The notes beneath the pieces were generated by a model that saw only the letters and a program-made list of their open reading frames with translations, was not told where the DNA came from and did no database searches. Of a stretch of 64,000 bases of DNA, positions 20,709-21,221 are shown piece by piece. Source of the DNA: Erythrobacter sp. SDW2 (GTDB lineage Bacteria > Pseudomonadota > Alphaproteobacteria > Sphingomonadales > Sphingomonadaceae); contig NZ_CP090370.1 in the NCBI RefSeq assembly GCF_021431965.1, forward strand, positions 1,302,001 to 1,366,000, read 5' to 3'. Both the position numbers and the translations under genes were made by a program. Position 1 is the stretch's first letter. Every line of letters starts with the position of its first letter.

Positions 20709-20879
20709 CCTTCCCGGAACGGGGAGGGGGACCATCCGCAGGATGGTGGAGGGGCAGGTTCGCTTGCTCCGGCCCTCAAGCAATCGGACCGGCGGCCTGT
20801 GCCCCTCCACCCCGCCGATTTGCGTCGCGGTCCCGCTGACGCTTCGCGTCACCTACGGTTCCCCCGTTTCGGGGAGGAT
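20709..20879. repeat. Imperfect inverted-repeat intergenic element
   Basis: About 170 bases between ilvE and the small ORF unit. The outer arms (CCCGGAACGGGGAGG near 20714; CCCCCGTTTCGGGGAGG near 20861) and inner arms (GGTGGAGGGGCAGG; CCTGTGCCCCTCCACC) are imperfect inverse copies, and each half has a small hairpin (ACCATCC-GCA-GGATGGT; TGACGC-TTC-GCGTCA). It has no coding frame and looks like a non-autonomous repeat of the type scattered through alphaproteobacterial genomes. Confidence 0.6.
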
Positions 20880-20923
20880 AAAAATGAGAAGGGCAGCGCC
20901 ACCCTGGAGGTGTGCTGCCCTTC
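20877..20923 (-). terminator. Rho-independent terminator of the small minus-strand unit
   Basis: Read on the minus strand: GAAGGGCAGC, an inner loop with its own CACC/GGTG pairing, GCTGCCCTTC, then TCATTTTTAT. A perfect 10-base stem plus a T run that exists only in the minus direction, so it ends transcripts coming from the tiny ORF at 20978-21034. Confidence 0.85.
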
Positions 20924-20977
20924 GCATGGTCAGCGGCGGGAAGTGCCGCTCACGAAGCCTCTAAAGGTAGTCTGTGA

Positions 20978-21034
20978 TTACCTATAGTGCTCCGCGCGGA
21001 AACTTGCCGACCTCTCTGCTGAACCATGAGACAT
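20978..21034 (-). CDS. Tiny ORF (18 aa) with a maximal Shine-Dalgarno sequence
   Basis: An 18-codon frame (MSHGSAERSASFRAEHYR, then TAA) on the minus strand. Its ATG is preceded, seven bases from GGAGG, by AAAGGAGGTGATCC (minus strand of 21036-21049), a 14-base full complement of the 16S rRNA 3' tail. About 55 bases after the stop comes a strong terminator, giving a compact transcript of 150-300 bases. The frame is open upstream to an ATG at 21130, which would make a 50-residue, arginine-rich protein with no ribosome site I can see. The peptide has no Leu, Ile or Val, so it is not an attenuator leader for ilvE. Function unknown; it may be a small protein or a dual-function RNA. Confidence 0.55.
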   Translation of the reverse strand: MSHGSAERSASFRAEHYR

Positions 21035-21221
21035 CGGATCACCTCCTTTCGCGCTTGTGAGCCAAGACCGCCGTTTCACCGGGGCCGAGAACCGCGTGTG
21101 CCGCTGGCCTCGATTGGCAATGTGAGTCATCCGACTCGCGAAAACAAGCCTTGAAAAAAAGTTTTCCAACGTCAGAATAGCGCGCCTTGGCCCGCGAGAT
21201 TTCGGCGGGTTTTTCTGTGCC

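Follow-up and report, generated by a model that had tools for sequence, protein, structure and literature searches.

On the minus strand of the window (the whole 64,000-nucleotide stretch of Erythrobacter sp. SDW2 DNA analysed here), a tiny open reading frame (ORF) lies between an unusually long Shine–Dalgarno (SD) sequence and a terminator, with ilvE downstream on the same strand. Does such a locus make a peptide, control its neighbour, or act as an RNA in its own right? A sequence-only reading had noted a 14-base perfect SD match and had proposed a highly made micropeptide, a ribosome-trapping RNA or a dual-function transcript. Among these options, the analysis described below favours the ribosome-trapping or dual-function ones. 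The reading at which we arrive, and which we would put at roughly even, is that of a ribosome-docking RNA whose function would lie in the loading of 30S subunits and a brief translation, rather than in the peptide produced.

Architecture of the element

The SD match is real and stronger than had been described, as the 14-mer is part of a 15-base complement to the 3′ tail of 16S rRNA. The other parts were also correctly recognized at first reading, namely a tiny ORF of 18 codons on a small RNA that ends in a terminator of its own (Table 1). Taken as a whole, the element has the appearance of a self-standing small RNA of roughly 170–230 nt, which is probably transcribed in Erythrobacter sp. SDW2.

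Table 1. Parts of the element and their positions in the window
Feature	Position	Strand	Remarks
Candidate promoter: TTGTTT (21147–21142), 17-nt spacer, CACATT (21124–21119)	21119–21147	minus	Motif recurrence upstream of sphingomonad copies
GANTC sites in candidate promoter	21137–21133, 21128–21124	minus	
Extended SD sequence, GAAAGGAGGTGATCC	21050–21036	minus	Complementary to 16S tail GGATCACCTCCTTTC; in relatives invariant or with mainly G-U-compatible changes
One-base spacer, SD to start codon	21035	minus	
ORF, 18 codons, MSHGSAERSASFRAEHYR, TAA stop	21034–20978 (ATG 21034–21032, TAA 20980–20978)	minus	
Long-range helix, 5′ arm CATGGTTCAGC, codons 3–6	21018–21028	minus	Predicted in the consensus fold of 46 sphingomonad sequences
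Long-range helix, 3′ arm GCTGACCATG, conserved segment	20925–20934	minus	Predicted partner of the 5′ arm in the same consensus fold
Intrinsic terminator: T run preceded by hairpin AAGGGCAGC...GCTGCCCTT	20880–20923	minus	Most stem pairs change two-sidedly in relatives

A divergent branch of the CC2171 family

At gathering thresholds, Rfam gave no match for the window element. In E-value mode, the window copy aligned with the complete model of RF01867, CC2171 (positions 1–159 of 159, E ~1e-6), at 37.9 bits and hence short of the gathering score of 75. Other sphingomonad copies scored 35–62 bits against the same model (L029, for example, 61.7 bits with E 8e-11), and family members in Methylobacterium, Bosea and Brevundimonas 86–90 bits. 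Reciprocally, a covariance model built from 46 sphingomonad copies only (R1) recovered members in other orders with E-values of 2e-14 to 1e-3, and found CC2171-type members at E ~1e-13 to 5e-9. On the strength of the full-length sub-threshold match together with the reciprocal recovery by R1, we firmly assign the element to CC2171 as a divergent, sub-threshold homologue, forming the sphingomonad branch of this functionally orphan family. What the sequence-only reading had missed, while its interpretation stands in part, is precisely this membership of a known orphan sRNA family that is widespread in the class.

The two branches share the 5′ block GAAAGGAGGUGAUCC..UGUCUCAU of RF01867, which has the same letters in the window, and a long-range helix that would connect the start-codon region with the stretch just before the terminator. 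They differ in the letters of that helix (CAUGGUuCAGC:GCUGACCAUG in the window branch, CAUUGUC:GACAAUG in CC2171) as well as in the ORF, which has ATG and 18 codons in the window branch whereas CC2171 has mostly GTG and 22–26 codons. Moreover, Erythrobacter-like genomes carry ~50 nt extra before the SD sequence relative to CC2171.

CC2171 was reportedly found as a Caulobacter sRNA by Landt et al. in 2008. Schrader et al. 2014 (PMC4117421) describe two of Landt's predicted Caulobacter ncRNAs as in fact translated. In the literature searched, mentions of CC2171 or RF01867 are confined to the Rfam 15 paper, where the structure-update table lists one extra covarying pair for the family, and to a Mesorhizobium sRNA prediction table; strings of the peptide and of the core sequence did not occur in it.

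Although CC2171 is already known as a family, its breadth exceeds what the Rfam model shows at its cut-off. In the collection of species-representative genomes, at least 119 stretches contain the core pattern GAAAGGAGGTGATCCNRTGTC, and among the records listed, every one with a class or lower rank in its title is alphaproteobacterial. With one mismatch allowed, the pattern search returned 48 of 86 alphaproteobacterial and none of 213 other pseudomonadotal genomes, and the control pattern, read backwards, gave 0. Likewise, R1 matched 56 of the 289 genomes, spread over Alphaproteobacteria. Some alphaproteobacterial families were without a detectable copy in both the pattern and the model searches, and consequently the element is not essential everywhere. 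Usually there is one copy per genome. Two genomes of the window's own family (G070 and G804) have two copies each, of which one has the usual GATCCGATG block and the other is CC2171-like and has GATCGAATG.

Pairing with the 16S rRNA tail

The 16S 3′ end used for comparison (...GGCTGGATCACCTCCTTTCTAAGGAT) was read from a genome of the same genus. When at most one mismatch was allowed, AAAGGAGGTGATCC had a single site outside 16S in the 2.92-Mb genome, and this site is the element; exact 14-mers would be expected by chance ~0.014 times, i.e. once in ~70 genomes of such size. The sequence-only reading was right in regarding the match as extreme. In computed energy, the duplex between the element and the 16S tail reaches −29.9 kcal/mol, which is 8.4 standard deviations from the mean of the sites in the 64-kb window; no other site there goes beyond −21.9 kcal/mol.

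The pattern of variation among relatives points to selection on 16S pairing beyond the SD core, along the whole tail. G-U pairing is kept in 26 of 36 one-mismatch variants of the 15 nt, and in 20 of 21 at positions 2–14, against an expected share of 16% without transition bias and 31% with a fourfold bias, the counts being phylogenetically non-independent. The edge positions of the match break at times (G1A, C15G). At position 12, left free in a search of Rhodobacterales, A occurred in 49 genomes, G in 25, and C and T in none; at a nearby third codon position, left free in the same search, all four letters occur. Copies found with the covariance model and inspected singly had only G-U-preserving changes in 7 of 10 cases. 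A one-base deletion (GTGACC) is present in four copies of one genus, as well as in L015 and L028. In the predicted RNA, only one unpaired segment is strongly conserved, and it perfectly matches the single-stranded 16S 3′ tail over its entire length.

Five Rhodobacterales copies (L061, L071, L080, L136 and L171) carry CACCTCC, CATCTCC or CGCCTCC before the terminator. As such a stretch is able to pair with the RNA's own SD sequence, the ribosome site may be self-masked in this order. A (T)CAACAA-type leader, resembling a translation-enhancing CAA stretch, recurs in all orders 5–12 nt upstream of the SD sequence.

A covarying fold with a long-range helix

The folding energy of the window RNA is −83.7, compared to −59.3 ± 4.6 for shuffled sequences (z = −5.3). 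The consensus fold of the 46 sphingomonad sequences contains 45 pairs, 20 of which change two-sidedly. These changes sit mainly in the inner hairpin and in the terminator, whose hairpin covaries strongly, and they argue for selection on the fold. The long-range helix is kept by all 46 sequences and is nearly invariant among sphingomonad copies. Between the sphingomonad and CC2171 branches, one of its pairs changes from U-A to G-C, and in the equivalent helix of CC2171-type copies one pair varies as UA, UG or CG. The helix thus has two-sided support that is modest, though consistent. Folded by itself, the window sequence has a minimum-energy structure with local hairpins in place of the long-range helix. 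This preference would fit a switch, and in the window copy the helix has the status of a prediction.

This anatomy also bears on an alternative that we regard as possible though rather doubtful, in which the element is a translation-gated, trans-acting sRNA: the ribosome site would set the stability or folding of the RNA, and the output would come from another segment pairing with target mRNAs. The strong long-range helix, tying the start-codon region to the 3′ domain, and the conserved, sRNA-like anatomy with its own terminator would both suit such a role. However, outside the 16S-pairing segment most conserved letters are internally paired, and the alignments are without a visible unpaired seed that spans the clades.

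Start and stop codons are kept, the peptide is not

The ORF begins with ATG or GTG in 181 copies, apart from one TTG. A stop after 18 codons is found in 56 of 60 distinct sphingomonad copies, with TAA, TGA and TAG all in use, and the codons flanking it are highly variable. In two sets of Rhodobacterales copies the stop likewise follows 18 codons (17/17 and 27/30), and TGG was never found at the stop position although its letters are common. Among CC2171-type copies, an inner anchor lies 34, 37, 40, 43 or 64 nt from the start, and the frame is the same in 25 of 27. A frame broken in relatives, which the sequence-only reading had looked to as evidence against its proposal, did not turn up, as relatives retain the start, the stop and the length of the ORF. 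These regularities indicate that the start and stop codons are under selection, and the ORF itself is probably translated.

Is the product then what is selected? The view that the 18-residue peptide is the function, with the strong SD sequence serving high output, has in its favour the conserved start, frame, stop and length, along with peptides that are recognizable within clades, such as VSRVILERGVGT in Rhodobacterales. Nevertheless, purifying selection on the peptide was not clearly seen by dN/dS in either group examined (0.87 in Rhodobacterales, 1.44 in sphingomonads), and the values in frame were no lower than out of frame, which weakens a peptide function without excluding it because structural constraint on synonymous sites biases these ratios upward. 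Furthermore, the peptides are unrelated between orders, the longer ones matched no protein family in an NCBIfam search, and one copy from a Methylobacterium MAG (L105) changes frame in the middle of the ORF and still retains the stop. The earlier suggestion of a highly made micropeptide as the function does not hold up against these values, and we consider a micropeptide gene improbable.

Start and stop codons also weigh on the view that the 16S match serves another partner or purpose, either as a chaperone or in maturation at the 16S 3′ end, or as a sponge for CCUCC-bearing sRNAs that imitate the anti-SD sequence. The match covers the whole tail up to helix 45, beyond the presumed need of initiation, and anti-SD-like sRNAs such as ar14, which is in the Rfam listing, are known to occur in Alphaproteobacteria. 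Yet an ideally spaced, conserved start codon and a conserved stop would be left unexplained, and there seems little prospect of this view being correct.

Genomic neighbours

Flanking ORFs cluster within orders only. Of more than 50 sphingomonad loci, ~30 share a cluster on their downstream side to which the ilvE region belongs; this cluster was found in no other order sampled. Elsewhere the neighbours are PhaR-like, Vut_1, cyclopropane synthase, RNase R-like, TMEM175-like, ExoD and crescentin-like genes, among others. As neighbours differ between orders, and downstream genes also between genera, the element is not tied to ilvE and is independent of its surroundings. A cis-acting leader or attenuator of ilvE, which the position of this gene downstream on the same strand might have suggested, was rejected on synteny and is very improbable; in addition, MSHGSAERSASFRAEHYR is without Ile, Leu and Val, and no competing antiterminator was seen. 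The first reading had already judged attenuation of ilvE unlikely from the composition of the peptide, and rightly so, ilvE following the element within a single order and not throughout it.

An intergenic palindromic repeat lies between the terminator and ilvE (window positions 20715–20885), with 12 whole or partial matching places in the genome. For six plasmid or chromid records with a match, no gene was listed under the match in a gene table that is itself incomplete. A phage-borne element was rejected, a phage search being without match. Separately, six IMG/VR contigs (L180–L185) contain the core pattern.

Finally, a chance match or a remnant of a 16S gene, for which nothing but the 15 bases themselves would speak, is hardly credible given the chance expectation above, the want of any 16S similarity around these bases, and the class-wide conservation of the match together with ORF, structure and terminator.

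Upstream region

A scan for sigma-70 consensus promoters on the element's strand found none, and the only conserved feature upstream is a CTTG...GANTC arrangement, recurring before sphingomonad copies as CAAGnCTTG...GANTCAnAT. GANTC is the motif methylated by CcrM in Alphaproteobacteria. It is present within 100 nt upstream of 49 of 62 sphingomonad copies, as compared to 19.5 expected, and is not enriched upstream of the other copies (39 of 118, 36.5 expected). The enrichment suggests GcrA/CcrM-linked, cell-cycle-timed transcription in the window's family.

Discussion

How might a ribosome-docking RNA work? A 30S subunit would dock at the full match to the 16S tail, at ideal distance from the start codon, and initiate the 18-codon ORF. 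To initiate, the bound ribosome would have to open the helix enclosing the remainder of the RNA, since this helix begins at codon 3, six bases downstream from the A of the start codon. The RNA would switch between two forms, open with a ribosome bound and closed without one, and 30S loading with the short, obligatory translation would alter its form or lifetime. By this means it could titrate or buffer free 30S subunits, or report on them, with the peptide as a by-product. Pairing to the whole 16S tail combined with a seemingly unimportant product makes it probable that the RNA catches or senses ribosomes. Counting against the docking model, the RNA output of one locus may be too low to titrate ribosomes, and a peptide that varies between conserved start and stop codons would also be compatible with a role in RNA stability or a trans-acting function elsewhere in the RNA.

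Two known systems offer partial parallels. SgrS/SgrT represents the type of dual-function sRNA that carries a small ORF. The element resembles it as a small RNA with a conserved and, judging from the sequences, translated ORF, and differs in having the ribosome site itself as its conserved unpaired segment and a peptide without clear constraint. The extended SD–anti-SD pairing of Staphylococcus aureus (PMC13009471) is similar in that pairing is prolonged towards the start codon and guides initiation. There, however, many mRNAs pair over a few more bases, whereas here one small RNA per genome would pair with the whole tail and its product is apparently irrelevant.

What is new here is the breadth of the family, its sphingomonad branch, the apparent selection on pairing along the full 16S tail, and the conservation of a stop codon without clear constraint on the peptide. 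An orphan Rfam family, known so far from Caulobacter and a Mesorhizobium list, becomes a widespread and usually single-copy RNA. With selection on the full 16S match and on the stop, and not clearly on the peptide, the range of its possible functions narrows to activities involving ribosomes, which can be tested in tractable hosts such as Caulobacter, Bradyrhizobium, Methylobacterium and Rhodobacterales. Tentatively, and at somewhat less than even likelihood, the family may represent a widespread alphaproteobacterial RNA whose conserved "seed" corresponds to the 16S 3′ tail in full and which senses or buffers free 30S subunits through an obligatory, informationless mini-ORF; this would be riboregulation that targets the ribosome itself.
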